From positions 2,848,978 through 2,912,977 of the forward strand of contig JAJEKV010000078.1 in assembly GCA_021234155.1 (NCBI GenBank): a stretch of 64,000 bases of DNA, given 5' to 3'. The stretch is from Isoetes taiwanensis. Taxonomy: Eukaryota > Streptophyta > Lycopodiopsida > Isoetales > Isoetaceae. Below the pieces are notes generated by a model, which made no database searches, was not told where the DNA came from, and saw only the letters and a list, made by a program, of their open reading frames with translations. The position numbers were made by a program, and so were the translations under genes. Below are positions 20,270 to 46,059 of the stretch, one piece after another (the stretch's first letter is position 1; each line of letters opens with the position of its first letter).

Positions 20270-20446
20270 ATGGTTGTTGGACATGACATTAGTGGGCAAG
20301 TTGTTAGGAGCATGCATTATGCTAGTGATGAGCATGTAAGCAAGTTGACAACCCAAATTATTATCTTTAGTGTTCTAATTGTTATCTTCATGATATATTT
20401 CTCCGAATTGGTCCTACTATCTTTAGTGCTATCTTCATTGTTCTAA
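20270..20446 (+). CDS. Conserved ~58-codon ORF with one predicted TM segment, copy 1
   Basis: The ORF starts at an ATG in the context AAAATGG with MVVGHDISGQVVRSMHYASD, then EHVSKLTTQ, then a strongly hydrophobic stretch (IIIFSVLIVIFMIYF) that could span a membrane. Almost the same peptide is encoded in R1 copies 2 (34305) and 3 (52976); only the last residues differ. The 3' end runs into an imperfect ~86-bp duplication (GTTCTAATTGTTATCTTCAT twice, at 20368-20470). It is unrecognised and could be the first exon of a captured gene. Conservation may simply reflect recent duplication. Confidence 0.3.
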   Translation: MVVGHDISGQVVRSMHYASDEHVSKLTTQIIIFSVLIVIFMIYFSELVLLSLVLSSLF

Positions 20447-20769
20447 TTGTTATCTTCATAATATATCTCTGAGAGTTGGTCCTATGTCACTCTCACCTCT
20501 GCATATTCTTTCAATGTCCAACTGATCATTATATAGTATTCAAGTTGTGCATGTCATTCTTGTGCAATGATCTTCAATACATTGTTCCATTTGATTACAT
20601 CCACAAATGACATGTAGTGATATAGGATATAGGATTGTTCCATTTCACTGCATCCATGAAGGAACCAATTAGCTACTTAAGAGATTCTAAAGTCATCTAT
20701 AAATTGTTCCTTTAGAAACTAGCCATAAGCTTCAATCCTACATTATCTCCATGCCTTGATTATCTTGTG

Positions 20770-23500: not shown

Positions 23501-23924
23501 AATTCCTTGAAACAATGAGAACCATCCTTCTTGTGCACAATGGCCGAGACAAAAAGAGACTAAGGGTGCATCCCCATTGAGCCTCGAACTTCGGATTTTC
23601 TCCTTTGCCATATCAATAAATCAAAAGGCAGGAAGAATCTTAAAGTGTGAGCATTTCCATTAGAGCCGTTTTTGTGATCCGATGGAGCCCTGTGCTATGA
23701 GACAAGATCTTGTTTGCCACAAAACAAAAGCTTGCTCACTACAGGACAAAAGATTATTGCTAAAAGACAAACCCAAGTTGTATCTCGGCAATCCGGAATA
23801 TTGTTTCACTGCGGTTTTGGAGCTTCAGTCTGCCTTGCCGGTTACCTGAATGGCTATAGCAGGAATAAGGCTCCAAATATCTATTGCGGTAGCAACAGGA
23901 TTGCATAGAATACATGCCGTGGTC

Positions 23925-24100
23925 TTGGGTTAGCCGGTTTCCACACCGGTTGCCCGGCAACAATCGCGGCCAGCCGGTTTCTGACCAAGAGCGGGTTTGG
24001 GCGAGTCACCGGCATATCCTAGGTATATTCTAGCATATACTTAGGATATGCCACAAAGACCCACATAAACAAGGGTTTACCCTAGGGCAACCCAAAAATG
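23925..24100. repeat. H repeat, copy 2
   Basis: The hairpin CATATCCTAGGTATAT / ATATACTTAGGATATG starts at 24005 and is followed by AACAAGGGTTTACCC and CAACCCAAAAAT. It has the same arrangement as at 6003 and 38113. It lies between the ABCC fragment and the gag-position ORF of R1 and may mark the join of two different source sequences. Confidence 0.75.
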
Positions 24101-24724
24101 AAAAAAATGAAATAGTTATATTTGCAATAGTTAAAACAATCATTAAAATGCAAAAGTGGACTTAGTACAATCATTAATTTAATTTGGGATTATGTCTATT
24201 CCCAAATTGTGCCCAATAAGCATTATTTTCAGTGCATCTTGAGTAAGCTTTTTTGTATTAATAAAACCATGGTGTATATTGCATTCTGTGTTCTTTTTCT
24301 TTATTTACTTCAAATAAAGCAAGGAAATGACTTGTTGATTTTGAATTAACAACAAGAGATTATATACCATAAAAATGTTGGAACATGATCACCATGATCT
24401 CAAACATCATGTTATTTTAGGCTAATAATACTCGACTAGGTAGACAAAATAGTAAAAGTGATGTCCTCCAAGTTGCTTTAAAAGAAACAATTATACAAAC
24501 TGTAGCACATTTAAATCACACTTGATGTGATTTTAAAGCTATGATAATCCAAGAAACACGGAAGGTATGTCTCTAAGGCAAGGAATTAATTTATGAGGGT
24601 CCCATTTTGTGCATAGCATACGAGCAAGTGTTCACAAAGACATGGGATTTCCTGATTTTGGTTGGTCATTAACATCAGCATATCCAAGCAATCTTGCCAC
24701 GCATAAAATAAAAAACGACTTTCA
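24101..24724. other. R1 interior between H and the gag-position ORF, copy 1
   Basis: AT-rich sequence without a recognisable gene. It contains the uninterrupted site (GTCTATTCCCAAATTG, near 24195) where copy 2 carries the 0.65-kb insertion. Confidence 0.4.
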
Positions 24725-25081
24725 TCATCCGGAAATTTGAACAATTGCAAACGACCTCAGAAGCTCTTGCTCATAGGTTCTTAATTCCCAGTTTTTGCAA
24801 ACTATGCAACCGATGATAAGCGGAAGTTCATTCAAGCGATCAAAACTTCCACGGGAAGGGACTTGTAAAGAAATACCCTTGGTATCTTCTTCAAGTACTT
24901 CAACAATTAAAGCGCATTGCTTAGTAACTAGTTTATTGACTTCTTGTTCAATGGACGCCATCTTCCCTTGAAGACATACTAAGTTTTCAGCCGGCTCTTG
25001 GTGAAACACTTTCAAGTTCCCTTCTCCACTTCCCAAGTGGTTTGAAAGATGAGAACTTTTTTCGTCCATTTCCGCCATCAA
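24725..25081 (-). pseudogene. ORF downstream of the PBS (gag position), copy 1
   Basis: On -, 35 bases after the PBS, a 118-codon frame begins MMAEMDEKSSHLSNHLGSGE. It contains a likely coiled-coil stretch (KMASIEQEVNKLVTKQ) and VEVLEEDTKGIS. Position and helical character fit an N-terminal Gag segment of a Ty3-type element, but I see no zinc knuckle, protease, RT or integrase after it. Copy 2 (39309-39881) encodes the same core. The downstream body of a normal retrotransposon is absent; the ABCC fragment and helicase follow instead. Confidence 0.4.
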
Positions 25082-25115
25082 GTTTAGATTTTCCCGAGAA
25101 AACTAGATTCACGAC

Positions 25116-25130
25116 CCGACTCGATACCAC
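25116..25130 (-). other. Primer binding site (tRNA-iMet type), R1 copy 1
   Basis: On -, TGGTATCGAGTCG follows the LTR end. It is one small indel away from the plant consensus TGGTATCAGAGC, and the discrepancy falls at the CAG, as elsewhere in R1. It would prime minus-strand DNA synthesis. Confidence 0.65.
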
Positions 25131-25137
25131 CATTACG

Positions 25138-26405
25138 ACGCTAAAAAATTTTCCTTAAGAACAATCTCGCCCACGTGTTAGCGTAGGCTAGCTTCCACCG
25201 CACCTTGGATCCGGATCCCCTCGCTAATCTTATCGAAACTACTTTGCTATGTGAACTTCCACCACGAAGCCGGATTCCTTCAAAGAATCCCTACGAGTTA
25301 AGCACCTACCGGATGCTTCACTCTGATTGATCTCTGGCAGTAGCAATGTGCCTTGAGATCGTAAAACGATCAAAGGCTGCAATCCGACCCTATGGGTCGG
25401 TCTTGATCGGCTCTGGCGAGAAAATGCGGATTCTTTGAATGAATCCTCGATTCGGCACCCTCTTGGTCCTTCCTCCAATTCGATCCTTGGTAGAAGCCAC
25501 GCCTTTAAGGCCAAGCCGCAGCCTTAGGCGCTTTTCGACTCTATGGGCTAATCCACGAATCAACTAACGGTACAATTAGCGGGATGGAATCGGCTTATCA
25601 AGCCATCGATCCCAATTCATTCATGGGCGGTAGCAATGCGCTCTATGTGATCGTAAAAACTGACCCTGAGGCGTAATCCGACCCTATGGTTCGATCTTGA
25701 TCCGGCTCTGGCAAAATCGGGACTACCTTGGGGCCACACTATCCACCCGGATTCAAAATGTACCCAAAGCCCGGGTTCGTGAATCAAACCTGAGATCAAT
25801 CACCGGCGAGAATCGGTGACTATCTCACTAACCGGTTTTACGTATCCTCGCTCAATCCTCCACGTAGGCTTTATAATCCGCCCACTTGAGCTCCACGAGG
25901 CAATCTTGCATGCCCAAAACCGCCGGATCGAGGCCTTTACTTGACCCAAATCCATGCACTATAGCCCCTTTTAGAGATCGGCATCTCCACGATATATCGG
26001 GTTTAAGAAACCCATCGAACTATTTCACGCCATGTGTCACTTTAATGTTTCATTAAAACCATAGCTAACCTTCTAACTTACATTTAAATAACATTGGCCC
26101 CTAGGGCCTTACATTAACATTAATATCTAATGTTAACCATGTAAGCTTATGGGTCCTCTGCCCTGGTCAATCCCTGCTAGCTCTTGCCGCGCTAATATTT
26201 AACAATATTAGCACCCCCTAGCGAACCATTATCCGCCGCTAGCGATTAATACCATTTACCCCGCATCCGGTCGCGTGTTGGTGATTCACGATCAACACGG
26301 CCCATTAAATCATCCGCCCGGCAATCGCGACCAATAATACCCCCGTGCTCATGGACGTCCGTCAAGGGCCCGATTCTGGCTATGCCCTTGGGAGCACATG
26401 TAACA
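25138..26405 (-). repeat. LTR (~1.27 kb), R1 copy 1
   Basis: Read on -, this starts TGTTACATGTGCTCCC directly after a polypurine tract and ends near the PBS. Copy 2 is at 39902-41161 in the same orientation. The interior includes a palindrome-rich tract (TTAACATTAGATATTAATGT) and a GC-rich part near the 3' side. TG at the start, a PPT before it and a PBS after it together define an LTR. The gag, pol and second-LTR layout of a simple element is not present, because both sides are R1 sequence. Confidence 0.75.
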
Positions 26406-26424
26406 TTCCTTCCCCTCCTTTTGG
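26406..26424 (-). other. Polypurine tract, R1 copy 1
   Basis: On -, AAAAGGAGGGGAAGGAA abuts the LTR start TGTTACA. Upstream comes AACCTTGAGGGCAAGGTCC, a context typical of the end of Ty3/gypsy internal regions. It would prime plus-strand synthesis. Confidence 0.75.
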
Positions 26425-29186
26425 ACCTTGCCCTCAAGGTTGATTATATAGTCAACTATAACTTGAGAGGAAAAATAAAGAGGACCTTCTGAAGGAGCCA
26501 AATCATGGCCATAGATTGTGAAGATGTTATTCAGATATTAAGCTCCCATTCGCAAAATAAAGAAAAGGAAACACAAAATTTCTTTTTAAGCTTGGAGTGC
26601 GCAATGGATGCATTGACCGAGAATTGTAACTTCTCAAGAAAGTCTAATTTAGAAATGAATAGTAGATAGAATATATAGAAATTTACCTTGTGAGGAGGCG
26701 CAGAGATAAAGAATTACAAAGAAATGATCAAACTATTGGCATAGCTTATTAAATTATTGTTCATCTTCATGTTGTATGAGAAAATGACATGCAGACAACT
26801 GAAATAAGCCAAGGACTTCATATAAAGATGAGAAAATGAGGACGCTTGAAATTTACGCTATGTATTTGCTCATGCATGAAAAGAATCTTGATTCTAAAGT
26901 GAATGTTGGAAATTGATAATGGAACTTCAATACAAAAAAGCTTCTCACTTCTCAATACTATAGAACACATTCGCCTTTAAATAATGGTAGGATACCATAT
27001 GCATGCAATACAAATGAATGGAGGATAAGAACAAGCGCAAGGCCCCAAAACACATGTCTCAAACTATCAAAATGGAAGAAGCTTGGCTCCTTCTCATTCG
27101 TTAAGACTCATAAACCTTGTCTATGTTCATGCATGCAATGGTGGGTTGTAGAGTCAAATTAAAGTTGCAGTAACAATGGCTTAAGTAAGTGGACATCTCC
27201 AACTCGCTAAGAATAAAGCTGGAAAGCTACTTGAGGAAGTTTGCTTATCTCTCTCCTTTTCATTCCACGTGCGGCAATAGACTTATAAATCTTGTCTATA
27301 AAATTCAAACGGGCTACCATAGTTGGTGTCTAAAAATTTCTATGCTCAAACCACTGTCCTCATTTCACCATGTGTGCCATTTTTTTGCCCAGGTTTTGCA
27401 AGTTCCATGAGGGGGATTTGAAGAGGCATAGCTCGATTCATTACCCATGCACCATTCGAGAAGATTCAACAACAGCTGTGCCATTTTTCCAAGGGCGGGT
27501 AAAGAGAAAAAGGAATTTCGTTTTTTACAAATCTACTGATTTCTAAGTTTACAAATAAATTTTAGCTGCCGATTTGAATAAGGAGAACACCTCTGACATG
27601 TAAAAATCTTTGGGCCTCTATACCGGTTCTACAACCCTCTTTGTTCATATCCAGAACATGCAATTCTTTTTGTATATTCCACCTGAGGCTAAATTTTAGC
27701 CGCTATACTTAGGAATACGGGCTCACAAGAAAATGTACTTATTTGATATCGCATGTTTATGCCTGCCCTATGGCTAGTTTTTCTTTCTTTTCCTTCATTT
27801 GCATGTTCCACCTAACCCTTTCCCTAAGCTTGCCTTACTGCCGGTTCAAGTTTGTGGATATTGCCCTATTGCGAATGATAATTTTAATATAATACAAAAT
27901 GTCCATTACCGATGATATTGATCGCATGTTGTCCCACCTTCCTTCATACTTAGATAATGTTACACCTAATGTACAACCACCAAAAAGATAATAATACCTT
28001 AGAAGAAAGGAACATTGAGATCCTTGTACAATAGTGTGTGCATCACCCTTTGAGATCAATGAAAAGTGTTTTTTTTTTTTGGTAACATGTGGGGATATTT
28101 AGAATGAAGAAAAAACTAGTTTAGCTTGCATTATCAGTAAATGAGCCACGTGCAAATAAATATGCACATCTACCATCCTATTGGATGAGATGCAAATATA
28201 GCAATGGCAAAATTGATGGGCACTTGTGCTTTTCCATTATCGTGTGCTCATCCCAGGAATCTTGGCAATAGTAGTAGTCGTTGTAGTCCTGCATTTCATT
28301 GATATTTGAATTGTGTGAGCTAGTAAGGAGGTGCCAGATTCGTATTTCTTTAAACGCTAAATTCCATTTTCTAGCTTGTGTTGATTCTTTGCCTTGAAAG
28401 CTTTGGTAAAACTCATCTAAAGCAAGGACTTGATTTCCTTCTATATGTACATAGGGGAGATGTACATCTCTAAATATTGAACCGTCTGTACACTAGCTCA
28501 TGAGAATCCAAAATATAAGAGCTATAGAAAACTCCACTTCTTTTTGCAAAGAAGTGGAATTGGGTTGTTGCCGATTGTTTTTGTTATTGAAAATTGATAA
28601 TTTTTGTTTTGGTGTGTTATGGGATTTGTGTTATATTTAATGGTATATATGTTATTCATGTACTTGGTAATGTTTTTTGAATTTTGTTTTTTTCCACACT
28701 AAAAAAACAGCATCTCCCATAACTCGCCAAAACAAAACAGAGTGCGTTTGGTCTAATTCTAAATCTAGCATCGTGAACTCTAGCATGGCATCTTCCATGC
28801 CTTTTTCAAACAACAATGAACAAGGTAATTGAAGTTTCTATATAAAAGTACTAAGAATTAACCTTAATTGCTCCTTGGATTTCGTCAATTTAGTTGCATC
28901 TGAGTTTGTGCCAAAGAAATGATCTGTTAAAGCTAAAAAAAACTTCTTGCTCAATGCTAAATTTAATATTCGAGCCATACTTGCAGGACGTGCTTTCTGC
29001 TCATAGCCCACAAGCAATATCAGTTCAAAAAGAAGAACGAAAGCATTGAAAGAATACCTTACTTGAAAAAATAGCACAGATCCGGGCATAGATACAACAC
29101 TCTACTTGAAGAATCGAATGTAATTCTGGACGACACTCGAGAGAAGAAGCTCTATCCATCTCTAGTTACAAGTTAACTATGTAAAC
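26425..29186 (-). other. R1 right arm, copy 1 (exon-like segments, subrepeat S inverted)
   Basis: This interval equals 41181-44010 of copy 2. On - near 29040-28865 there is an exon-like stretch after a TGAGCAG acceptor, KARPASMARILNLALSKKFF then TDHFFGTNSDATKL; I do not recognise the family. Subrepeat S lies at 27835-28060, inverted. The hydrophobic frame intact in copies 2 and 4 (41620-41886 and 60814-61053) is broken here near 27070-26880 by losses at CTGCAG and CCAG sites. A palindrome around GAAGTGGAATTGGG and CCACTTCTTTTTGCAAAGAAGTGG lies near 28540. Confidence 0.45.
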
Positions 29187-29286
29187 TATTATTAATGCGC
29201 CTCATGGTAATCGAACAACAGGACATCCATCATCCGGGCTTGGAAGATGATACATGTGGAAGGTTAGGACATACCGTATTGGAAGT

Positions 29287-31900
29287 CTAGGTCGGTGTGC
29301 ATGGGTTTCTATACATTTGTTGTATCGTCTGTACAAAGGAAGGCTTAAGAAAATGTACCCCATCATAAAAGCAGCTCTTTGTAGGCGATATTCTTAGTGC
29401 ACCTTGCTGTGTCCTCTGGCGAGAGGAGATGAGCACGTCATGTCTATTCCACATGCGAGTAAGCGTCATGTATAGCTGGCCATGTGCGAACACATCGGTA
29501 CGAAGGTCGATGACGACAAGATCTAATGTCAGCCCCTGACAACTATTGGAAATGGTCGAGTAAGATAATCGGAGAGGCAATTGTCTCCTGTGAATGGTCC
29601 AAGGTCGATTATCTGGCCGATAGAAGAAATCATCTCTAGAGATTGGGTATGTGCATGAATCATCATCGATGCCGTCTAATACCTTCACCATTACAAACTT
29701 TGTGTGCATTGATACAATCATAACCCTCGCATTTTTCACAAGACCCTTTTCCATGTCCAGTCATTTCATAATGATATATAGCATCCACCTTAAGCTTGAG
29801 TTCGTGGTTGGATATTCCAGAATGTGTGAAGTTATTAAGAAAATCCGATATTGCATACGCGTGGTCGTGTATGATTTCATCTTGTTCGATTACGTAATCA
29901 TGGCTGTAATACGACTTGTCATAACCAGGGACTCTATCAAGAATGCAATAATTGAAGTTATCAACGCTCTTATTGATCGGTGAGAGGAAGTTGTGTTTCT
30001 TGCATGTTGTTGGATCTCGAAGGATGTTGGAGGGATATAGGATTTCAACGTGTATGCACGCTATATTCATAGTTGTGTTAAAGATGTCCAGCGGGACTGT
30101 GGATTGCTCCTAGTCCTCTCTTATGTGATCGACAAATTGCATTAGTTCAGGATCATCTGCATTTCGGATAGGTTCTTCCAATCTTAACACATGAAAACTC
30201 TGCCACAACAATGATGATTTTATGGATGCATTATATGCTGTTGTTCTCCCTCCCCTTAATGGCCAGGAGCAACCTATCGAAGTCTCGAAGCAATAAAATG
30301 TTTACCACCAAACGGGATATTGTCTCCATAGCTGCTGCTATAAATGATCGACGCTTTCTATGAGTTAACTTTGTTGGCCATGGAGAGCTCATCCCAAATG
30401 ATAACCCTAGCTGCAAGCAGTAGATCTGCTGCTCCGGAATCACATTCTATCATCGAGTGGAGCCCTGCATTGTTTTCCTCAACGGGGATCTGGAAGAGCT
30501 AGTGGGTTGTTCGTCCTCACGGGTATTGGCGGGGCTATTAATCTTTGTCATTACCACATGGAAACACTATATCTCGGTTGCCTCGTATGAGCGGGCATAT
30601 GATGTTTTCCTCTACCTTCTTTTCCATCAATGAAGATTGGTTGATTGCTGCGGCAATTCTAACCACACATGAATGAAGTTGTGTATCTCTCGCTGATCGT
30701 TTTTTTTTCATTTTGCTTTCGCCATTTACATTTGTAGCATTTAAGTGCACGCTTAGGTGGTCAGAAATTTTTCGCAACTCATGTATGTCATATCTCCCAA
30801 CACAAGGTTGGAGTTGGAAACCAAATGCCATGATCTTGGTATTATGTTGTGTTAGATTACTATTGATTAAATGGAGGGATTCATTGAAGGCAATCGGCTC
30901 ATCGTTTGGATATTTGTTTAGTACGTCAATGCTTATGGGTACTTGGAACCTAATCCATAGCTCCATCGCTGGACCTTGGTCGAGTAGTGATATAGCAAAA
31001 AGAAAATATGGTTGTCTAGGACTCAATGACAGAGAAACTGCGTCCTCCATGACTAGTGTTGCTTCATTATATGCTGTGAGCAATCCCTTTGCTTTTGCAG
31101 GCTGTTGATATGTCCCATGACGTTGATCATTAATGATCTTTAGCTCGTTCCATGACCTTACATGGTGGAGGAACAAAATTTTCCGCAGGTAGATGCCTCA
31201 CCGACGCTAGGCAGAAGCAAAGGTATTCTACATACTAATCGTTGTCTTAAACGTTTCCTCACAATGTTTTTGTAAATCCGTCCTGTTCTTGTTCTATGTA
31301 AGATTCAATTTCAGATATTGATGCCAGACTATATATTGTCAATGTATATTGTTCATAGTATTGAATATATGTAAGTGTATCAAATACCTGATCAAGATGT
31401 CGTAAGAAGTATCGGTCTAATAATGACCTCGTCTTCGAATGTAAAGGGTGAAGAGGTAGGCATTTAACAGCAGGGAACTTGTTTGTTATGTTATATGACA
31501 TTATTCCCCATGATGCCTTTATGGCAGAAGATAGTGTGCCTTTAAGTATTCACCTAGCTCATTCCTACTACTTGGTCTGGCAGTTTGTCCTTGAGAATTG
31601 TGTGCAGATGCCTGCCTTGCATCGGGATTTGTATTCTCGTTATCAACGCTCTGCTGGTTATGGACCGATGATGGTTCTGGAACTATATGCCTCTCTCGAG
31701 TTATCTGAAATCTAGCTGTATCAAACCCCTTATATATGTAGCTATGTAAATAAGAAAAAGACATGCATGGTGGATGCGACGTCAACCATAATACGTCAAT
31801 CAAGTTCATGGAGAAAAAATGCATTATACGACTATCCATGCATCGTCTCTACTCCTCCTCCTGTATTGCACGTAGCCCTTTGAATCAAGATAATCCACAC
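29287..31900 (-). pseudogene. Helitron/PIF1-type helicase relic, copy 2 (most complete)
   Basis: Blocks on - in order: LDSKGYVQYRRRSRDDAWIV across frames near 31890-31830; YLHSYIYKGFDTARFQI (about 31755-31705); ITNKFPAVKCLPLHPLHSKT; FLHHVRSWNELKI; KAKGLLTAYNEATLVMEDAV; LDQGPAMELWIRFQVP; NDEPIAFNESLHLINSNLT; a WDELSMANK Walker-B-like box recoverable in another frame near 30390; GDFRQ region near 30290; ILYPSNILRDPTTCKKHNFL; DRVPGYDKSYYSHD; and the helicase end KGLVKNARVMIV, PLRLSYSTISNSCQGLTLD (motif with SQG altered to CQG), DVFAHGQLYMTLTRMWNRHD. Several frameshifts separate the blocks. The Rep/HUH domain and the 5'-TC/3'-CTRR termini were not identified. Confidence 0.88.
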
Positions 31901-34290
31901 AGAGTCACAATACCATTAATTCTCGGTTAGAATCTGGAACTGATTATGCAGTGATAGTTTGAGAGTGTGGAGGGTCGAGATCATGCAGAAGGTACCTGGC
32001 ACTGGTAGCTATCCAAAATGAGCCCCCAAACACTTGTTGTGGAGGGGATTATGATTTTGCATTACAGAATCGGTTGTGAAGGTATCACAACATTGAGGAT
32101 AAATTTAATCTTACCCTATTTATATACTTTGAATAAAGAGAGCGGAAGAAACAAAGGTCTTTGCTGGGAGCGATAGCCATTTTGCAGACCACCTTAAATT
32201 AGAAAGTCCCATCAGACTGCACACTTTTGGGCTTTAATCAACTAATCCTGTAGTTCATGGTTTCCTTATGGGTAATTCTTAAGGGGATAAACACAATATA
32301 CAGGGCAAATTGTATAATTTAGAGGTTAGCTAATGGTGGCAATTTTGCTTCTATATAGAACTTACTTTATACTACCCATGGCGAATTCACAAAAAGAGAC
32401 TAAGCTATATAGCACAGTTATTTCACCGCTAGATTTCCCTGCCATCTAATTTATCGATGAAAAGCAATCGAGCGAGTGAGCTTGTTGTGGGCAAGTTATG
32501 GCGAATTAGCTTGTTGTCCTCATTGGTCAATGTGGCACTTTGGGGGAGGGGATGGGTTTACAATTTTATCATGATTGTACATCGTCGTCAACACAAGCCT
32601 CAAGAGTATTGCAAAGCCAACTTATCTCTCCGTCTCCTCTTTACCGGTGTGTATATCTCTGGTATTTAACAATTCTTGTAGAATAGATGATATTGTTAGG
32701 GCACCATGGCTTGAAATTTAATATAAAATTCATTCATACTCTAAATTAAACAAGGGAATTCATTTCGTGTGACTCTATGATATTACTTGGTTAGAATTAC
32801 ATGGGTAAGATTTCATAAAGCATAAGTATTTCACATTCGTATTTGACATAAAATGAGCGTGGACCTATCTTTGCATTGGCGACAACACAAATAATAAAAG
32901 AAAAAAAAAAAAAAGATTGGAGCAATTCATATGATCAGTCAGTTGAACAAAGGAAAGTATGGCATGTCAACTGATGAAAGATATTGCCCTAAATGACATT
33001 ACTCTTGGTTGGAAAGAAGGCCAGTGAATGTATCATATTTAATATGTTCTATACAACAATGATAATCAGTATGATCATTGAAAGATAAAAGTTTGAAATG
33101 GACTACATCTAGTAGTTTTACTTTTAATTCCTCAACGATCGGTGGAGATTGGCAACTCGCAAAACATCACGCTTCTTTGCATGCGGATGGTAATCCCTAC
33201 ATTGTGCATATGCATAAACGGATGAGTAACTAGAGACAACCATAAACAAGAAAGGATCAAGTTAACTAACTAATAAGAGAGCTTTATTGGATATCAAAGT
33301 CCTCTACGGGCCGGGCTTAGCTAGTCTCTAATGTTGTTGGAGATTGCTTTGCATTCTCCTTGCCTCGTGGTACCCTCCTATTATTCTGAAATTTTTTTCA
33401 GTATAAGGCGTAGATTAATGTCCTTGCTTTTTATCAAAAAGCGAGCTTGCCTCGATTCCAACTCTGTATCATTTGAAGTGGTTTGCCTAATAAGCACACT
33501 TCCTAAGCCTATTTTCTTTGCAACTAAAAGAGATCCTTGAATCTATCCTTACAATTTTGCATCTGTTGCATCTTCCCCAAGCACACAAGCAAGCTGTAAA
33601 AGGCTTTCGTAGCTTCAAAATCTGTGGCCTCTTCTTTGTAAAATCACTTTGCCCTCCAGGTCCCCGAGGTGGTGGTGGTGTTTCGTGTCGATGGCAAAAA
33701 CAAATGTGAAGATCAAAGCATTTGCATCAGATATTGTCTATGGGTTTAACTTCCCTGCCCGGGCCAAGACTTTTTGTGTTGCCTCGACATAATAACTTGA
33801 CATTTTGATATTGTGATAAAGTAGTATAGTTGTTGGCAATCGACCCACATTTAGAGAATTGGCGAGTTACTTCAAACTCAATTTTTTAAATAAAATGATA
33901 AAGCTGCATGTATAGTTCTCATTTACAACACCGGTTCCATGTACCATTCAATTATTTTAATAGTGCACCATTCAAGTACTTTAATTTACGGTTGACATTT
34001 ACAACTCGAGAAAGTTCAAAACTTGCTATGTTCGACGAGCGGCAAGGTTGACAAGTTATAGGTTGTTGCCACAACCTACAAAGAGTTATGAAATTTTTGG
34101 ATTCTTCATTCTCTCGCGCATTTCATTTGTTGTATCTCAGCTTTGGATAAGTGCAACGCATCTTGCACCTCTATAAGGAGAGGTGGGAGTGCATCTTGCA
34201 TCTCCTCTGTTGGCCTTCTGATCTGCGCCATCCTCTAATGCCCCTTTTTATTAAACTTTAAAACCCTCATTTTGATTTCAAATTATAAAG
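31901..34290. other. R1 interior between helicase and the 60-codon ORF, copy 2
   Basis: Collinear with 17881-20250 and 50570-52960. No gene recognised. Includes the A-rich run near 32905 and the CACCTCTATAAGGAGAGGTG stem near 34165. Confidence 0.4.
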
Positions 34291-34304
34291 AGCTTCTTGG
34301 GAAA

Positions 34305-34484
34305 ATGGTTGTTGGACATGACATTAGTGGGCAAGTTGTTAGGAGCATGCATTATGCTAGTGATGAGCATGTAAGCAAGTTGACAACCCAAATTATTATC
34401 TTTAGTGTTCTAATTGTTATCTTCATGATATATTTCTCCGAATTGGTCCTACTATCTTTAGTGCTACTATCTTCATTGTTCTAA
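34305..34484 (+). CDS. Conserved ~58-codon ORF with one predicted TM segment, copy 2
   Basis: The peptide is identical to copy 1 from MVVGHDISGQ through FSELVLL, with a slightly longer C-terminus. Here an in-frame upstream ATG (34272) would add MISNYKELLGK, but a one-base difference removes that extension in copies 1 and 3, so the ATG at 34305 is preferred. Function unknown. Confidence 0.3.
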   Translation: MVVGHDISGQVVRSMHYASDEHVSKLTTQIIIFSVLIVIFMIYFSELVLLSLVLLSSLF

Positions 34485-34799
34485 TTGTTATCTTCATGAT
34501 ATATCTCTGAGAGTTGGTCCTATGTCACTCTCACCTCTGCATATTCTTTCAATGTCCAACTGATCATTATATAGTATTCAAGTTGTGCATGTCATTCTTG
34601 TGCAATGATCTTCAATACATTGTTCCATTTGATTACATCCACAAATGACATGTAGTGATATAAGATATAGGATTGTTCCATTTCACTGCATCCATGAAGG
34701 AACCAATTAGCTACAAGAGATTCTAAAGTCATCTATAAATTGTTCCTTTAGAAACTAGCCATAAGCTTCAATCCTACATTATCTCCATGCCTTGATTAT

Positions 34800-37560
34800 C
34801 TTGTGTATTTTGGTCAACAAGAGAGACTTTAACCAGAGGTACAGTCCAACAATTCCAATTCTTTGCCCACCACAAACGGAGCTATTTCTTGATACCGAAC
34901 CTGATATTATCAGTATGGGATATCACATTATTATCAATCTCTTTTATAGTATGAGAAGGAAAGCACCAATATAATCTCCATTCATCCTATAGATCATGCT
35001 CCAGAAACATAACCATCCTCCAATATCTAATCTGACCCTATTAAGCGCTTGAGGCCATTCAGCACTTGAGGCCATTCAGTTTACAGCTTCTACATCAACA
35101 CCCTTGCATCTTTTCAGTCTAGCAGTCGGCAGAAGTCATAATCGAATAGAGTTATGAAAAGAGATGAAAATTTATTTGTTCCCAGGTGGTTAGTGATATT
35201 AACTCCTAAGTTGAAGAACAGCCACAACAGTAACCATTTTCAGCATAATAACGATTAAAAGAGAAACATGAACCTAGAATTTCATCAGAATAATTTCCCA
35301 CTGCGTATCAGTTGAAATGTAGTGCAGATGAAGATCACAGTGGTAGATCATGCCACGTTTCATAGAATATTTTATCTGAATTTTGAAAGCCTTCATTTGA
35401 TTAACTAGCAAGAGATTATACCTGCAGATTTTGCAGATCCATCGTTCCTTTACAAGGCCATGTGCAAAGTGGTGGTTGCTGTCAATTATAGCAGGCGCTT
35501 CTTGAGGCAGATGCATGTACTGGTATATCCGTTCTACAGACACAATGTAATTTGCTGTGAATAATAACCATTGAAGCGAGAAAATCTGTGCGTCGTTTAA
35601 TGGGAGGGCATAAGACAAGGAGAGTCCAGCAAGCCGTTCAAAATTGTTAAAAGTTAAAAACAGTTGAAATAGAAGAAAATGGATGTTAGGAGAAATAAAT
35701 TGCCTTACTTCACGCTTCCAGATTGCAGAACCATGAGCATTGCTTCAGCAGATAATATAAGAGTTTCCAGAAATTCAACAAGAAGTGCTACCCACTCATA
35801 AGCTATGAAAGTTTGAAGATTCTGAGAACCATCAATGTCCATAGCTTGTAAAGCTTTACCACAAATATGCTCTTGCTTTTCAAAAGTCCGGATAGTTGTC
35901 ACGCCGAGGGCTATTTGAAAAGGCAAATATATAAATGGTATTTATTGAAAGTGGATTTTTAAGGTGACATATTTGACCTCCTTTTGCTTAAATATTTATA
36001 GCCATGTACCTGTAGCCAATAAGCGGTCCGGTCATTGGAATGGCAATTATTATAACACTTTCCCGTCACAATTGACATTGCAACCAGTATAGCAATAACA
36101 TCACATATTTCTGCAAATATAAATGCAAGGCGCATTGGAATATCTATATACAATATGCTCATGTCTAATGAAGCCTGAAACCCACATCCAATTAATTGTC
36201 AATAGTAAATCAATTCTATATTCTAGTATCATGGACACTAATTGAAAAATAATATACCCGGTTTAGAATTACGCCAATAGGTGTCGAATCAAATATAGAC
36301 ATAGGTGCCTTTGAACAAAGAATCCATAAAGCCAGAAAAGAAAGCCTTTGATGCTTTGAGGCCAAGAGATTTATATGATTTACCACGCACATGGACCAAC
36401 CCTCCAGTAAAAGAAATCACTGCATAAACAATTACTAACATTGGACTTAATCTTGAGTTCGATCGGTGGGCAACGAAGTTGCTTACTTTTACGCCAATTA
36501 CAAATATGATTTGTCTTTGCCAAAGCTAGAGTGAAAATTACATCCCCCTTGCTTATTCCTACATAACTCATAAGTGATCTAACGCCCAAGCCACCCATTT
36601 CTTTTTCCTCATCCTTTGTTAATTGACTAACATCAACAGTTGTATTGTGCACCTTCACGGACAGGTCTTTTGCATCATGAAAGACTTTTTCTTTGGCTTT
36701 AAAATATTTTCAGCTAAAGATGCATGCTCTCTTGCATTATTATGTGCATTCATAAATGTCACAAACATCTTTGCCATTTGTCAACAACTCATCATATTTG
36801 CCGGCCTACTTTATTTCTCTAGCTTGCATCATCTGGAATTGAGATAGACAAGTTCAAGATGTTCATGCAGGACGTTGTCTTTCCAAATTGAATTTCACCT
36901 AAAAGACGATGTTTAGTTACATCTAAGGTTGTCAAAACTTAGCACTTCTTTTTTTGTAGCTTAATCCATTGTCTTTCTCAATTGATCAGCAAAGTTGATG
37001 ATAACTTTCAAATACCAAGTCTCTAAATTGTAGTGCCATTATAGTTTGAGTCTGCTTTATAAGTCTAAATGTAACCTATGTTTCATCATCATGTCAAGAT
37101 ATAGACCTAAATATCATTGATGCAAGGCACTTACTAGAATTTTGTCTGCTTTTGGCAAAAACCCCACTTGATGTATCACTAAGATGATAGCTTTAGTCAA
37201 TGACATTCCTGAAATGCATTTCTGCAGAGTGAAAACTGCCAAGTAAAATCATCGGTCCTTTGACACCTTGAGCAACAAAGCAGCAGTTTGAGCATCCACA
37301 GCAGTGAAGCAATCACCCATTATGTAAATATCAGAGTCACTATACAATGCATGAGCTAGTTGTATCCGTTGCTTCTGTCCTCCACTTAAATTAACTCCTC
37401 TTCGTCCAATCTCATTAAGATCCCTATGAGTAAAGGCAATCAAATTTTCCTTAAGTGCACACGCACAAATGATTGTAACCTTTCTGCGGCAGAGGATACT
37501 ACCTGGAATAAAACTTCATGAGCAAGTTTGATACAGTCCCATTGGCTCTCGTCAATTCCT
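34800..37560 (-). pseudogene. ABCC (MRP-type) transporter fragment, copy 2 (best preserved)
   Basis: Full ABCC proteins pump glutathione conjugates and other organic anions, in plants mostly into the vacuole. Exons on - in order: NBD1 IAFTHRDLNEIGRRGVNLSG then GGQKQRIQLAHALYSD (37443-37250), with a degraded Walker B (IYIMGDCFTAVDA; family norm LLDDPFSAVDA); ILVIHQVGFLPKADKILV (about 37195-37130); linker QLTKDEEKEMGGLGVRSLMS (36620-36560); TMD2 KSYKSLGLKASKAFFSGFMD (about 36380-36310); DMSILYIDIPMRLAFIFAEI (36165-36090); ALGVTTIRTFEKQEHICGKA (35915-35850); SYALPLNDAQIFSLQ and VSVERIYQYMHLPQEAPAII (35618-35480); and CGGQRIGIVG (about 34880-34850), where NBD2 breaks off before Walker A is complete. 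TMD1, the start of NBD1 and most of NBD2 are missing. Confidence 0.9.
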
Positions 37561-38029
37561 TGAAACAGCAGGACCATCCTTCTTGTGCACAATGACGAAG
37601 CAAAAAGAGACTAAGGGTGCATCCCCATTGAGCCTCGAGCTCGGATTTCCTACTTTGCCATATCAATAAATCAAAGGCACCGGAAGAATCTTAAAGTGTG
37701 AGCATTTCCATTAGAGCCCCTTTTTGTGATCCGATGGAGCCCTGTGCTATGAGACAAGATCTTGTTTGCTACAAAACAAAAGCTTGCTCACTATAGGACA
37801 AAAGATTATTGCTAAAAGACAAACCCAAGTTGTATCACTAATCCAATCCAGGCATATTGTTTGGTGGGGCTGCGGGTTTGGAGCTTGATGCGCCTTGCCG
37901 GTTCCCTGAATGGCTATAGCAGGAATAAGGCTCCAAATATCTATTGCGGCGTTTATTTGTAACCCAAAGCATTACTTTTGCATATAATACATGCCCGTGG
38001 TGCCGGTTAGCTATATTTCCACACCCGGT

Positions 38030-38195
38030 AGCCCCGGCAACAATACATGCCCGGTGCGGCCGGTTCCACACCAAAAAGCGAGCCGGTTTGACCAAGGCGT
38101 GTTTCACCCGGCATATCCTAGGTATATTCTAGCATATACTTAGGATATGCCACAAACCATAAACAAGGGTTTGCCCCCTAGGGCAACCCAAAAAT
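38030..38195. repeat. H repeat, copy 3
   Basis: The hairpin CATATCCTAGGTATAT / ATATACTTAGGATATG starts at about 38113, followed by AACAAGGGTTTGCCCCC and GGGCAACCCAAAAATG. It is collinear with the copy at 24005. Confidence 0.75.
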
Positions 38196-38314
38196 GAAAA
38201 GGCTTATATTTGCAATAGTTATAACCTAGAAATGCAAAAAGTGGACTAAAACAATCATTAGAATTGCAAAAAGTGGACTTAGTACAATCATTAATTTAAC
38301 TTGGGATTATGTCT

Positions 38315-38968
38315 ATTCTAGAATGGGACTCGCATGAAACCAACAAACCACCGACTTAGACTTGCTTCTCATTCATCTCGTGATTTTCTACAATGGTGGA
38401 TAATGGGTAGCGCACACATTGAACTACCCATAAAAATAAAGGGAAAATCCAATTATATCATTTGGACCCCAACAAAATACAATGCTAATAGAGGCTGGGC
38501 TAGTGTACCGCCGAAAGCTTATCACGGGATTAAAAACCCCCAGCCCTTTCGGGTTTTCGAGGAAAAACCCTAGTGATAAGCCTTCGACAAGGGCTTGGAC
38601 AAAGCGTAAGGCATAAAAATCGCTCCCAAAACCCACGAATGTAAAAGTCGAAAGCAGATGTCGCTCGCTAACACGTGCACGCACATCACCAACAAAACAA
38701 CAAGACAAACCAAACCTCCCAGTGGAGGGGCTGATTCTGGCGCGTGCCACGCGATAAAAATACAATAACAAAGAAGGGGGGGAGGGTGGGTTCAAAGAGA
38801 ATAAGGTACTGCTGAGAGAGAAGAGGAAGCGCCGATGAGAAGTCGAAGCAGAAACGCGCCTAAAATAGCGAAGTCCCAACCAGAACGGGCATGCGCCACC
38901 CGCATGCATGCAAAACATGCATGCTCGTCCCATTCTAGAATGGCGATCCGATGTCTCGGATCGATGGG
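38315..38968. mobile_element. ~0.65-kb inverted-repeat insertion, only in R1 copy 2
   Basis: Copy 1 reads GTCTATTCCCAAATTG without interruption near 24195; copy 2 has about 0.65 kb extra between GTCTATTC and ATTCCCAAATTG. The ends carry ATTCTAGAATGGGAC and GTCCCATTCTAGAAT (15-bp inverted repeats). A further GGCGATCCGATGTCTCGGAT stem lies before the right junction, and ATTC at both sides could be a 4-bp target duplication. The interior holds a GC-rich hairpin shared with LINE-B (about 38522-38580). No transposase. A 187-codon frame on - here is discounted as low-complexity antisense. Confidence 0.75.
38522..38582. repeat. GC-rich hairpin motif shared with LINE-B
   Basis: CTTATCAC and GTGATAAG flank GGATTAAAAACCCCC, GGGTTTTCGAGG and AAAAACCCTAG. 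A closely similar block, framed by TTACTAC and GTAGCAAT, lies at 61411-61482 in the 3' part of LINE-B. Two unrelated mobile insertions carrying the same framed hairpin suggests a mobile module or a common functional end. Confidence 0.65.
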
Positions 38969-39308
38969 ATTCCCAAATTGCGCCCAATAAGCATTATTTT
39001 CAGTGCATCTTGAGTAAGCTTTTTTGTATTAATAAAACCATGGTGTATATTGCATTCCGTGTTCTTTTTCTTTATTTACTTCAAATAAAGCAAGGAAATG
39101 ACTTGTTTATTTTGAATTAACAACAAGAGATTATATACCATAAAATGTTGCAACATGATCATCATGATCTCCAACATCATGTTATTTTAGGCAAATAATA
39201 CTCGACTAGGTAGACAAAATAGTAAAAGTGATGTCCTCCAAGTTGCTTTAAAAGAAACAATTATACAAACTGTAGCACATTTAAATCGCACTTGATGTGA
39301 TTTTAAAG

Positions 39309-39881
39309 CTATGATAATCCAAGAAACACGGAAGGTATGTCTCTAAGGCAAGGAATTAATCTATGAGGGTCCCATTTTACGAGCAAGTGTTCACAAAGAC
39401 ATGGGATTTCCTGATTTTGGTTGGTCATTAACATCAGCATATCCAGCAATCTTGCCACGCATAAAATAAAAAACCTGACTTTCATCATCCGAGGAATTCT
39501 GAACAATTGCAAGCGACTTAGAAGCTCTTGCTCATAGGTTCTTAATTCCCCATTTTTTTGCAAACTATACAACTGATGATAAGCCAGAAGTTCATTCAAG
39601 CAGTCAAAACTTCCCTGGTAAGGGACTTGTGAAGAAATACCCTTGGTATCTTCTTCAAGTACTTCAACAATTAAACTGCATTGCTTAGTAACTAGTTTAT
39701 TGACTTCTTGTTCAATGGACGCCATCTTCCCTTGAAGACACACTAAGTTTTTAGCCCGACTCTTGTTTGAAACACTCTCAAATTCCGCTTCTCCACTTCC
39801 CAAGTGGTTTGGAAAACAGAACTTTTTCGTCCATTTCGCCATCAAGTTTAGATTTTTGCGGAAAACTAGATTCACGACCAC
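39309..39881 (-). pseudogene. ORF downstream of the PBS (gag position), copy 2
   Basis: The core peptide is the same as copy 1 (LVCLQGKMASIEQEVNKLVT, VEVLEEDTKGISSQVP, GELRTYEQELLSRLQLF). The start differs because of small indels: MAKWTKKFCFPNHLGSGEAE here, MDEKSSHLSNHLGSGE in copy 1. The frame extends further at the C-terminus. Gag identity rests on position only. It could also be a fragment of a captured host gene with a coiled coil. Confidence 0.4.
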
Positions 39882-39895
39882 GACTCACGATACCA
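39880..39895 (-). other. Primer binding site (tRNA-iMet type), R1 copy 2
   Basis: On -, TGGTATCGTGAGTCG lies 7 bases after the LTR end; the consensus is TGGTATCAGAGC. The difference from copy 1 at the same base cluster supports an original TGGTATCAGAGTC. Confidence 0.65.
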
Positions 39896-39901
39896 GCATT
39901 C

Positions 39902-41161
39902 TGACGCAAAAAGTTTCCTTAAGAACAATCTCTACCCACATGTTACTTGTAGAGCTATCTTCCACGCACCTTGGATCCGGATCCCCTCGCTAATATTATC
40001 GACTTCTGCGCTATGTGAACTTCCACCACGAAGCCGGTTCCTTCAAAGAATCCCTCACGAGTTAAGCACCTACCGGATGCTTCACTCGATTGATCTCTAG
40101 CAGTAGCAATGCGCCTTGAGATCGTAAACCGCGATCAAAGGCGCAATCCGACCCTATGGGTCGATCGATCCAGGCTCTGGTAGAAATGCGGATTCTTTGA
40201 ATGAATCCTCGATTCGGCACCCTCCGGGTCCTTCCTCCAATTCGATCCTTGGTAGAAGCCACCTGCCTTAAGACCGCAAGCACAGCCTTAGGCTGCTATT
40301 TCGACTCTATGGGCTAATCCCTGAATCAACTAACAGTACAGTTAGCAGAATCGGCTTATCAAGCCATCTGATCCCAATTCATTCATGGGCAGTAGCAATC
40401 TGCTCTGTGATCGTAAACACAGCCCTAGGCTGCAATCCGACCCTATGGTTCCAGTGCTGATCCGGCTCCTGGCAAAATCAGACTGCCTTGGGGCCACACT
40501 ATCCGCCGGTTCCAAATGCGTACCCAAGGCACGGTTGCGTGAATCAAACCGCGGATCAATCCGCAGCCGAGAATCGGCTGACTATCTCACTAACTCGGTT
40601 TCTGTATCCTCGCTCAATCCTCCCTGTAGGCTTATAATCCGCCCACTTGAGCTCACAGGCAGTCTTGCATGCCCAAAACCGGCCAGATCAGGCCTTTACT
40701 TGACCCGAATTCATGCACTATAGCCCCTTTTAGAGATCTGGCATCTCCCTGATATATCAGGTTTAAGAATCCCATCGAACCATTTCACGCCATGTGTCAC
40801 TTTAATGTTTCATTAAAACCATAGCTAACCTTCTAACTTACATTTAAATAACATTGGCCCCTAGGGCCTTACATTAACATTAATATCTAATGTTAACCAT
40901 GTAAGCTTATGGGTCCTCTGCTTGGTCAATCCCTGCTAGCTCTTGCCGCGCTAATATTTAACAATATTAGCCCCTAGCTGAATCATTACCGCCGCTAGCG
41001 ATTAATACCATTTACCCGCATCCGGTCACAGTAGGCGATTCTGATCAACCACGGCCCATTAAATCTGGCAACCGCGGCAATCGCGACCAATAATACCCCC
41101 GTGGTTATGGACGTCCGTCAAGGGCCCGATTGCGACTATGCCCTTGGGAGCACCTGTAACA
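39902..41161 (-). repeat. LTR (1.26 kb), R1 copy 2
   Basis: Read on -, it runs from TGTTACAGGTGCTCCC to CTTTTTGCGTCA, giving TG...CA ends. It is collinear with the LTR at 25138-26405 and in the same orientation. If these were the two LTRs of one element, the internal region would be 26406-39901 and would contain the ABCC fragment and helicase. However, sequence outside both LTRs is also shared, so the duplication is larger than one element. Confidence 0.78.
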
Positions 41162-41180
41162 TTCCTCCCCCTCCTTTTGG
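41162..41180 (-). other. Polypurine tract, R1 copy 2
   Basis: On -, AAAAGGAGGGGGAGGAA directly precedes the LTR's TG, with CCTTGAGGGCAAGGTCC before it, as in copy 1. Confidence 0.75.
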
Positions 41181-41619
41181 ACCTTGCCCTCAAGGTTGAT
41201 TATATAGTCAACTATAACTTGAGAGGAAAAATAAAGAGTCCTGAAGGAGCCAAATCATGGCCATAGATTGTGAAGATGTTATTCGAAATATTAAGCTCCC
41301 ATTCGCAAAGTAAAGAAAAGGAAACACAAAATTTCTTCTTAAGCTTGGAGTCTGCAATGGATGCATTGACCGAGAATTGTAACTTCTCAAGAAGGTCTAA
41401 TTTAGAAATGAATAGTAGATAGAATATATAGAAGATTACCTTGTGAGGAGGCGCAGATAAAGAATTACAAAGAAATGATCAAACTATTGGCATAGCTTAT
41501 TAAATTATTGTTCATCTTCATGTTGTATGAGAAAATGACCTGCAGACAACTGAAATAAGCCAAGGACTGCGTACAAAGATGAGAAAATGAGGACGCTGAA
41601 ATTTCTGCTATGTATTTGC

Positions 41620-41886
41620 TCATGCATGAAAAGAATCTTGATTCTCCAGAGTGAATCTCCAGTTGGAAATTGATAATGGAACTTCTCTGCAGACAAAAAG
41701 CTTCTCACTTCTCAATACTATAGAACACATTGCGCCTTTAAATAATGGCAGGATACCATATGCATGCAATACAAATGAATGGAGGATAAGAACAACTGCA
41801 AGGCCCCAAAACACATGTCTCCAAACTATCAAAATGGAAGAAGCTTGGCTCCTTCTCATTCTCTGAGCAGGACGGTTAAGACTCAT
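41620..41886 (-). pseudogene. Hydrophobic ORF conserved in R1 copies 2 and 4
   Basis: RRSQASSILIVWRHVFWGLA is followed by VVLILHSFVLHAYGILPLF and SEKLFVCREVPLSISNWRF. Two closely spaced hydrophobic stretches could be membrane segments. The inverted copy 4 (60814-61053, +) encodes nearly the same peptide; copy 1 is broken by losses at CTGCAG and CCAG. It could be a 5' exon (TMD0 region) of the ABCC gene, since it lies upstream on the same strand, but I see no diagnostic motif. Confidence 0.3.
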
Positions 41887-43663
41887 AAACCTTGTCTATG
41901 TTCATGCACGCAATGGGAGGTTGTAAAGTCAAATTAAAGTTGCAGTAACAATGGCTTAAGTAAGTGGACATCTCCAACTCGCTAAGAATAAAGCTAGAAA
42001 GCTACTCGAGGAAGTTTGCTTATCTCTCTCCTTTTCATTCCACGTGCAGCGGCAATAGACTTATAAATCTTGTCTATAAAATTCAAACGGGCTACCATAG
42101 TTCGTGTCTAAAAATTTCTATGCTCAAACCACTGTCCTCATTTCACCATGTGTGCCATTTTTTTGCCCAGGTTTTGCAAGTTCCATGAGGGGGATTTGAA
42201 GAGGCATAGCTCGATTCATTACCCATGCACCATTCGAGAAGATTCAACAGCAGCTGTGCCATTTTCGCAAGGGCAGGTAAAGAGAAAAAGGAATTTCGTT
42301 TTTTACAAATCTATTGATTTCTAAGTTTTCAAATAAATTTTAGCTGCCGATTTGAATAAGGAGAACACCTCTGACATGTAAAAATCTTTGGGCCTCTATA
42401 CCGGTTCTACAACCCTCTTTGTTCATATCCAGAACATGCAATTCTTTTTGTATATTCCACCTGAGGCTAAATTTTAGCCGCTATACTTAGGAATACGGGC
42501 TCACAAGAAAATGTACTTATTTGATATCTCAGCATGTTTACGCCCTATGGCTAGTTTTTCTTTCTTTTCCTTCATTTGCATGTTCCACCTAACCCTTTCC
42601 CTAAGCTTGCCTTACTGCCGGTTCAAGTTTGTGGATATTGCCCTATTGCGAATGATAATTTTAATATAATACAAAATGTCCATTACTGATGATATTGATC
42701 TGCATGTTGTTCCACCTTCCTTCATACTTAGATAATGTTACACCTAATGTACAACCACCAAAAAACATAATAATACCTTAGAAGAAAGGAACATTGAGAT
42801 CCTTGTACAATAGTGTGTGCATCACCCTTTGAGATCAATGAAAAGGGATATCTTTTTTTTTTTTTGGGTAACATGTGGGGATATTTAGAATGAAGAAGAT
42901 ACTTGTATTTATTAATCTACATGTGAATGATGAGGAAAAAACTAGTTTAGCTTGCATTATCAGTAAATGAGCCACGTGCAAATAAATATGCACATCTACC
43001 ATCCTATTGGAAGAGATGCAAACATAGCAATGGCAAAATTGATGGGCACTTGTGCTTTTCCATTATCGTGTGCTCATCCCAGGAATCTTGGCAATAGTAG
43101 TAGTCGTTGTAGTCCTGCATTTCATTGATATTTGAATTGTGTGAGCTAGTAAGGAGGTGCCAGATTCGTATTTCTTTAAACGCTAAATTCCATTTTCTAG
43201 TTTGTGTTGATTCTTGCCTTGAAAGCTTTGGTAAAACTCATCTAAAGCAAGGAGTTGATTTCCTTCTATATGTACATAGGGGAGATGTACATCTCTAAAT
43301 CTTGAACCGTCTGTGCACTAGCTCATGAGAATCCAAAATATAAGAGCTATAGAAAACTCCACTTCTTTTTGCAAAGAAGTGGAATTGGGTTGTTGCCAGT
43401 TGTTTTTTTGTATTGAAAATTGATAATTTTTGTTTTGGTGTGTTATGGGATTTGTGTTATATTTAATGGTATATATGTTATTCATGGACTTGGTAATGTT
43501 TTTTGAATTTTGTTTTTTTCCACACTAAAAAAACAGCATCTCCCATAACTCGCCAAAACAAAACAGAGTGCGTTTGGTCTAATTCTAAATCTAGCATCGT
43601 GAACTCTAGCATGGCATCTTCCATGCCTTTTTCAAACAACAATGAACAAGGTAATTGAAGTTT

Positions 43664-43915
43664 CTATATAAAAGTACTAAGAATTAACCTTAATTGCTCC
43701 TTGGATTTCGTCAATTTAGTTGCATCTGAGTTTGCGCCAAAGAAATGATCTGTTAAAGCTAAAAAAAACTTCTTGCTCAATGCTAAATTTAATATTCGAG
43801 CCATACTTGCAGGATGTGCTTTCTGCTCATAGCCCACAAGCAATATCAGTTCAAAAAGAAGAATGAAAGCATTGAAAGAATACCTTACTTGAAAAAATAG
43901 CACAGATTTGGGCAT
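43664..43915 (-). pseudogene. Exon-like segment at the R1 right end, copy 2
   Basis: ASMARILNLALSKKFFLAL then FFGANSDATKLTKSKEQLR follow a plausible splice acceptor (GGGCTATGAGCAG). A GTTAAT donor follows the exon. It matches copy 1 (28838-29089) closely. Family not recognised; it might be the first captured exon of whichever gene R1 took up. Confidence 0.3.
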
Positions 43916-44010
43916 AGATACAACACTCTACTTGAAGAATCGAATGTAATTCTGGACGACACTCGAGAGAAGAAGCTCTATCCATCTCTAGTTACAAGTT
44001 AACTATGTAA

Positions 44011-45535: not shown

Positions 45536-46059
45536 CACTACAAGCAACGATGAGATTATGGCCTTTCAATGAGTTACAATGACATGAAATTATCAGAACC
45601 AAGTGCAAAAAGTATGAACACATGCCTAAGGAAAAGAAGAGAAGTTGGGACCATCAATTCTCATCTATGCAATGCGTGAATTGGCTGTGCTACACTATAT
45701 GCCAAAACAGACACATGATAAAACAAACAAATCCAAGCTTCAGTTCATGTATTCGTGCTCAAATATACATAAGCAAGCAAAACCTAGAAGATTAAGCTGA
45801 CATAGCATCAAGTGTGAAAACATGTGATAATCAGTTTTCAAATGTTTATGGAAATTGACATGAATGGAACAAGAAGATGGACTTCTTGGACAAAAATACC
45901 ACCTCTGGATTGGTATGCGAGAGCCACAGTCAAGGTTGTAGCTTTCTAAGATTTGCCCAGGTTATGCAATTTTAACAGTTTCCAGAATTTGCATCATCAT
46001 TCAATCTACTTGAATAATTCATCTTCTCTTTTCCTAATGCAAGCATGTCGGAGGTTTCA

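Follow-up and report, generated by a model that had tools for sequence, protein, structure and literature searches.

We examined a stretch of 64,000 nucleotides of the Isoetes taiwanensis genome, C1087:2848978-2912977 (hereafter the window), against the whole assembly of 1.66 Gb in 1110 contigs. Within it lie two same-strand long terminal repeats (LTRs), and between these are relics of an ABCC transporter gene and of a Helitron. A preliminary description had offered two accounts of the pair: a giant non-autonomous retrotransposon of the LARD (large retrotransposon derivative) kind that had swallowed other DNA, or a repeat that held a nested LTR fragment and was then duplicated. The features were located by self-BLAST, by comparison with copies fetched from elsewhere in the genome and by tblastn (E <= 1e-3) with separate protein pieces, i.e. 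the gag, reverse transcriptase (RT), RNase H, integrase and pol-end pieces of a dispersed LTR element (L004), the ABCC pieces of L025 and the 1589-aa Helitron protein of L026. They are as follows.

15747-18097, minus strand: Helitron Rep/helicase relic, unit A (tblastn with the L026 protein)
15748-29186, no strand: unit A of a tandem segmental duplication (self-BLAST)
21324-23454, minus strand: ABCC transporter relic, unit A, from the second half of nucleotide-binding domain 1 (NBD1) to transmembrane domain 2 (TMD2) (tblastn with the L025 pieces)
24695-25135, minus strand: gypsy leader, primer-binding site (PBS) and N-terminal part of gag in unit A, cut off at 24695 (ends of the L001-L003 matches; gag match at 24797-25093)
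25136-26405, minus strand: LTR A (sequence comparison)
26406-26444, minus strand: polypurine tract (PPT) with the final ~38 bp of gypsy interior sequence in unit A, cut off at 26444 (ends of the L001-L004 matches; breakpoint shared across the array)
26445-29186, no strand: array-specific block right of the gypsy fragment, unit A (query 26420-28860)
29186/29187, no strand: junction of the right end of unit A with the Helitron end of unit B, outside any LTR (probe matches, fetched copies)
29187-31892, minus strand: Helitron relic, unit B (coding match 29366-31892, tblastn)
29714-44012, no strand: aligned part of unit B, which itself starts at the 29187 junction (self-BLAST; Helitron sequence from 29187)
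35277-37506, minus strand: ABCC transporter relic, unit B, from the second half of NBD1 to TMD2 (tblastn with the L025 pieces)
38319-38968, no strand: insertion of ~650 bp in unit B, absent from unit A (alignment break between two self-BLAST segments; sequence read)
39459-39901, minus strand: gypsy leader, PBS and N-terminal part of gag in unit B (tblastn; left limit approximate, from the ~14764 offset)
39902-41161, minus strand: LTR B (sequence comparison)
41162-41200, minus strand: PPT with the last stretch of gypsy interior sequence in unit B (sequence comparison; right limit approximate, by offset)
45536-54523, no strand: third, partial copy (self-BLAST; Helitron relic at 49438-50538 and ABCC relic at 53966-54537, tblastn)
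54527-64000, no strand: inverted block (pieces 54527-55046, 59772-61307 and 63824-64000 match 26442-28594 reversed)

The LTRs are separated by 13,496 bp (26406-39901), and each has, as originally reported, a PPT on one side and the PBS on the other. Read on the minus strand, both copies present the same order: the pol end with the PPT (AAAAGGAGGGG...GGAA), the LTR (TGTTACA...), a spacer, TGGTATC... and the start of gag. On the plus strand LTR B runs TG...CA, whereas LTR A has C as its first base (CGACGC, compared with TGACGC in LTR B). The PBS, which had been assigned to tRNA-iMet, is imperfect in the window, where TGGTATC alone is intact; L001, L003, L005, L006, L013 and L017 carry TGGTATCAGAG at its place, and L004, L007, L011, L016, L018, L019 and L021 have TGGTATC without that longer continuation. 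The longer form presumably complements the 3' end of the plant initiator-methionine tRNA. No recognisable pol had been seen between the LTRs, and this held, as none of the L004 gag, RT, RNase H, integrase and pol-end pieces matched the window by tblastn; the gag start of L001 was the sole retroelement protein piece that did.

Genome-wide matches of the LTR were taken as the best 40 of 561 candidates; the count of array units below draws in addition on the fetched copies and on a probe over 26444. Four dispersed LTR pairs were fetched, L001 (C1063), L002 (C1027), L003 (C1031) and L004 (C1078), and all four enclose broken gag and pol pieces in interiors of 3.8-5.0 kb (with some LTR end included), so that these four copies flank gag and pol sequence; as far as they go, this is an outcome that the preliminary description had itself named as fatal to a gene-carrying element. 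In Pfam searches the L004 interior gave RVT_1, Integrase_H2C2 and, just under the cut-off, rve, and no match was obtained for the L004 gag piece or for one piece each of L001 and L002. By tblastn, matches to the L004 pieces for RT, RNase H, integrase and the pol end were present in each of L001, L002 and L003, partly with interruptions, and the L004 gag piece matched none of the three. The window copy is thus homologous to elements that possess RT, RNase H, integrase and LTRs, and whose domain order is that of the Ty3/gypsy superfamily.

The limits of this gypsy fragment are fixed. On the pol side the match to the dispersed elements ends at 26444 in all four, and its gag-side limit is 24695 for L001 and L002 and 24705 for L003, L004 matching only 84 bp there; the shared sequence comprises 26323-26444 or its end for L001-L004 and 24695-25219 for L001-L003. 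As the homology ends at 24695 and 26444, most of the 13.5-kb interior is foreign to that element. With a 200-bp probe over 26444 (best 40 of 485 candidates), 15 matches crossed the breakpoint, nine on C1087, five on C974 and one on the small contig C91, and 25 matches, on 20 contigs, stopped there. Because the breakpoint is crossed only in C91 and in copies belonging to two arrays on C1087 and C974, while dispersed matches stop at it, the fragment would have been truncated once, before the arrays were amplified. The query 26420-28860, taken mostly from the block to its right, had its listed matches on C1087, C974 and C91 plus one short match on C210 (best 40 of 984 candidates).

The other contents reported for the interval were both recovered by tblastn. 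The ABCC fragment (35277-37506, minus strand) aligns to an ABCC gene in L025, the pieces of which carry PF00664 and PF00005; the TMD1 and NBD2 pieces found no match. L025 served as the ABCC reference in place of two other candidates for an intact ABCC gene, L023, in which only broken ABCC pieces were recognised by eye, and L024, in which no ABCC piece was. A Pfam search of the three frames of 30500-38300, with stops written as X, returned a single ABC_tran match, under the curated cut-off. The helicase relic is of the Helitron Rep/helicase type: 29366-31892 (minus strand) aligns to residues 742-1589 of the 1589-aa open frame in L026, which contains Helitron_like_N (PF14214), PIF1 (PF05970) and Pif1_2B (PF21530). 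A short open reading frame (ORF) that had been called conserved is probably the 219-aa ORF at 30538-31197; it is present, but falls within the Helitron relic and forms part of it. In L033 (C974:10230000-10230500) and L034 (C974:10137600-10138100) the Helitron match that begins near 29187 has in front of it a second copy of this end, ~150 bp long and at ~80% identity, and similar doubled matches are listed in other array and dispersed relatives.

What the preliminary description missed is a tandem duplication that reaches far outside both LTRs. In the self-BLAST, 15748-24201 aligned with 29714-38318 (90.9% over 8741 columns) and 24198-29186 with 38969-44012 (92.8% over 5114 columns), so that the homology between the two units extends 9.4 kb to the left and 2.8 kb to the right of the LTR, and LTR A and LTR B occupy equivalent positions ~14.8 kb apart. 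Such homologous flanks are not those of a transposed element, which would be bordered by the halves of one target site. The units join at 29186/29187. A 100-bp probe over this join gave 33 matches, all of which were scored; one, the window itself, spans it, 19 contain the left half only and 13 the right half only. All five of the other copies fetched at 29186 (L028-L032) read on as does unit B from 44013 onwards, and L008, which overlaps L028, agrees. Since a single match spans the join and the other copies continue as in unit B, we read it as a rearrangement private to this site in this assembly, by which units A and B were brought together. The LTR pair is therefore almost certainly one gypsy scrap nested in an ABCC-pseudogene unit that was multiplied through segmental duplication, both tandem and inverted, in agreement with the second account in the preliminary description.

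The same unit recurs in two arrays, at 2.86-3.13 Mb of C1087 and 9.92-10.28 Mb of C974, in which the order is Helitron, spacer, ABCC, gag, LTR, right block. The order was established by sorting the matches of seven unit pieces, for which 181 rows, mainly from C1087 and C974, were entered by hand, smaller and dispersed rows being left out. The ABCC piece 34036-36300 gave 48 rows (best 40 of 65 candidates), of which 41 were entered and the other seven were further pieces of loci already counted; among the matches listed it defines 37 merged loci, 33 in the arrays and four single (C1018, C1068, C907 and C919). No LTR match is listed near any of the four. For the piece 36300-38318 there are, in addition, matches to more remote ABCC sequences, among them some on C1104, C1046, C939 and C441.

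Merging the rows by hand gave 30 array units, ten of which have a full LTR (four of them inside inverted cores), four a partial LTR, three an LTR tip, three a stub of ~95 bp and ten none listed; C974:10121167, placed in the tip class, may hold a whole diverged LTR. This replaces an earlier same-orientation count among the 33 array ABCC loci (nine full, three partial, 21 none), which overstated absence: it split inverted units in two, required the LTR in the same orientation, and missed the LTR tips at C974:10127185, C1087:2964572 and C1087:3043475. ABCC and Helitron segments do therefore occur in units with no LTR listed, the second outcome that the preliminary description had regarded as contrary to a single element. 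The ~95-bp stubs were found in L005-L007, where they are followed by ~300 bp of other sequence and then by 27658 onwards; to judge from the stub that remains, these units have lost their LTR. With such stubs, tips and partial LTRs among the units, most copies probably descend from a unit that already contained the gypsy scrap.

Several C1087 units contain an inverted core, running from ABCC 35893 to right-block 28594, over the range C1087:2901686-3121389, which includes window positions 54527-64000; the inverted LTR that follows this block lies just beyond the window, at C1087:2913020-2914247. The junction of the inverted core was seen six times (near 2903502, 2936957, 2983109, 3010585, 3092947 and 3116531) and its reciprocal three times (near 2917396, 2989560 and 3017145), from which it follows that the inverted form was itself amplified. 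The LTR sits inside the inverted core and is carried along passively. Taken together, collinear copies of a multi-feature block at high identity, direct or inverted, are clustered locally, and the locus, although elaborate, is a segmental-duplication array of the ordinary sort in which transposon relics are nested.

The divergence of the two LTRs, which had been proposed as a means of dating them, could be measured but yields no age. Raw identity is 87-88%. LTR B is 90% identical with L011, whereas LTR A is 88% identical with both L011 and LTR B, a pattern that weakly favours duplication of the scrap. Much of the difference lies at particular trinucleotides: LTR A keeps only 2 of 22 CAG and 3 of 26 CTG sites of L011, compared with 19 of 21 CAT and 11 of 16 GAA control sites. 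Between units A and B, CAG/CTG was retained at 138/271 sites in the left part and 72/155 in the right part, compared with 13588/15784 and 8178/9263 respectively for trinucleotides without CG or CAG/CTG. The effect is wider than CAG/CTG, as CG-containing trinucleotides are also poorly retained (432/756 left, 330/535 right). Among 43 lost L011 CAG/CTG sites, six show deamination-like changes (two CAA, three TTG and one CTA); the commonest other replacements are ACG (five) and CGG (five), and the remainder are scattered changes and indels. The losses suggest consensus miscalls at methylated CHG and CG sites of the assembly, but in the sister pair L011/L013 the effect is weak, 76 of 93 CAG/CTG sites being kept. 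Among the papers listed in a literature search on CHG-linked miscalls, which dealt with methylation calling and assembly, none was seen to describe CAG/CTG miscalls in plant assemblies. The sections of PMC10473749 on this subject concern the high CHG methylation of transposons and consensus polishing, and not this CAG/CTG pattern.

With CG and CHG neighbourhoods masked, the identity of LTR A and LTR B rises to 97.4% in the multiple alignment (14 differences in 542) but to 94.3% in the pairwise alignment (31 in 542), or 93.9% (31 in 505) if gap neighbourhoods are masked too, and other unit segments reach 97.0-99.1%. Because of the CAG/CTG anomaly and because masked identity varies with the alignment, LTR dating is unreliable at this locus and we assign no age; sequencing error at methylated sites may account for part of the LTR ages, and for some of the broken reading frames, in this assembly.

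Two observations weigh against a scrap that was simply copied with its unit. First, the LTRs differ more than the rest of the unit after masking, pairwise, 31/542 compared with 167/8209 (p = 1.4e-6), and with gap masking too, 31/505 compared with 173/7830 (p = 1.7e-6), although the excess is less clear in the multiple alignment; residual artefact, faster change of the LTR or gene conversion could be the cause. Secondly, the three C974 units without a listed LTR that were fetched all keep the ~95-bp stub, and no unit was identified as representing the state before insertion.

Under the segmental-duplication reading, three relics would already have lain on the same strand of an ancestral unit: a truncated Helitron, a piece of the ABCC gene and one truncated Ty3/gypsy scrap consisting of pol tip, PPT, LTR, PBS and gag start. 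The last arrangement may have begun as the LTR common to two tandem gypsy elements or as a product of LTR-LTR recombination. Duplication of the unit would then have set the same LTR scrap at two sites ~14.8 kb apart, and hence the appearance of a 16-kb LTR element, and further copies may have spread by unequal exchange or replication-based duplication. A bolder extension, which we consider very improbable, is that the Helitron-ABCC-LTR block is a macro-repeat still amplifying as a unit in the two arrays, perhaps through the Helitron end or inverted cores promoting unequal or replication-based duplication, and that its ABCC relics may persist as a source of small RNA against ABCC genes.

Among the other explanations, capture of the ABCC fragment by a Helitron, with the array being either a rolling-circle tandem or several Helitron insertions, is very unlikely. 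It would account for the Helitron relic preceding the ABCC relic in 11 of 13 C974 loci, where its match starts at or near 29187, but the dispersed matches listed for the Helitron part end at 31892 save for three short pieces (best 40 of 417 candidates; no search for intact Helitron ends was made), the listed matches to the ABCC piece 34036-36300 fall in the two arrays and at four single loci, none of these four having a listed Helitron match beside it, and the coding match of the Helitron breaks off at residue 742. Still more doubtful is an LTR element with a large interior that inserted once and then gave an LTR-interior-LTR-interior array by unequal LTR-LTR recombination: the continuity of interior sequence on both sides of each LTR is as expected, but this explanation is already contradicted by the breakpoints of the gypsy homology at 24695 and 26444, by a unit join that lies in no LTR, and by the states of the units, 20 of 30 being without a full LTR and the cores being inverted. 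A ~16-kb non-autonomous LARD-like retrotransposon that captured ABCC and Helitron DNA and retrotransposed is scarcely credible, for although it would explain two same-strand LTRs with the PBS and PPT beside them and an interior without detected pol, it is refuted by the unique interior junction and the homology of the units, which place mutually homologous flanks at both LTRs instead of two sides of one target site, the five outer bases (CATTA at 25131-25135 and TTCCT at 41162-41166) form no target-site duplication, LTR-bounded units with the same interior were not found elsewhere (one of the 33 matches spanning the join), the four dispersed pairs enclose gag and pol pieces, and four single ABCC loci stand outside the arrays with no LTR listed nearby.

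Elsewhere in the window, an open frame at 6541-7656 (minus strand) with Glyco_hydro_17 and X8 domains is likely to be a beta-1,3-glucanase-type gene; the ORF with these two domains was the only one to give a match when ten single window ORFs were searched against Pfam. Open frames at 1970-3082 resemble a LINE (long interspersed nuclear element) reverse transcriptase by eye and are a candidate for one. An Rfam scan of the window at gathering scores gave no match. Judged by eye, the inner ends of the insertion at 38319-38968 resemble inverted repeats, and the filler in L005 and L006 finishes with a terminal stretch of similar sequence.

A duplicated LTR scrap that retains its PBS and PPT can thus mimic a giant gene-carrying LTR element, and the mimic is told from the element by homology beyond the LTRs, by the unit junctions and by copies at other sites. 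In the part of PMC6431247 that deals with them, LARDs are DNA trapped between two LTRs, with a content rarely >10 kb. The likeness of the window to a LARD (two LTRs, PBS and PPT, non-pol DNA between) is superficial; it is not a transposed unit, having a unique interior junction, homologous flanks and a single truncated scrap. To Helitrons of the Rep/PIF1-type helicase class it is related through a relic that aligns to a protein with PF14214 and PF05970, but the relic is truncated, and there is no evidence of its mobilizing the unit. With the Ty3/gypsy elements of this genome the window copy shares the LTR start and PPT side (L001-L004) and the gag start (L001-L003), and L001 and L003 have the longer PBS, but the array copy is a fragment without a pol domain match. 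Tandem and inverted segmental duplications with nested transposable elements are a known feature of plant gene clusters. The present arrays resemble these in being local arrays of gene relics with diverged units, direct and inverted, that carry remnants of transposable elements, and differ from them in nothing essential, the unit here merely holding an LTR flanked by a PBS and a PPT and so imitating an element.

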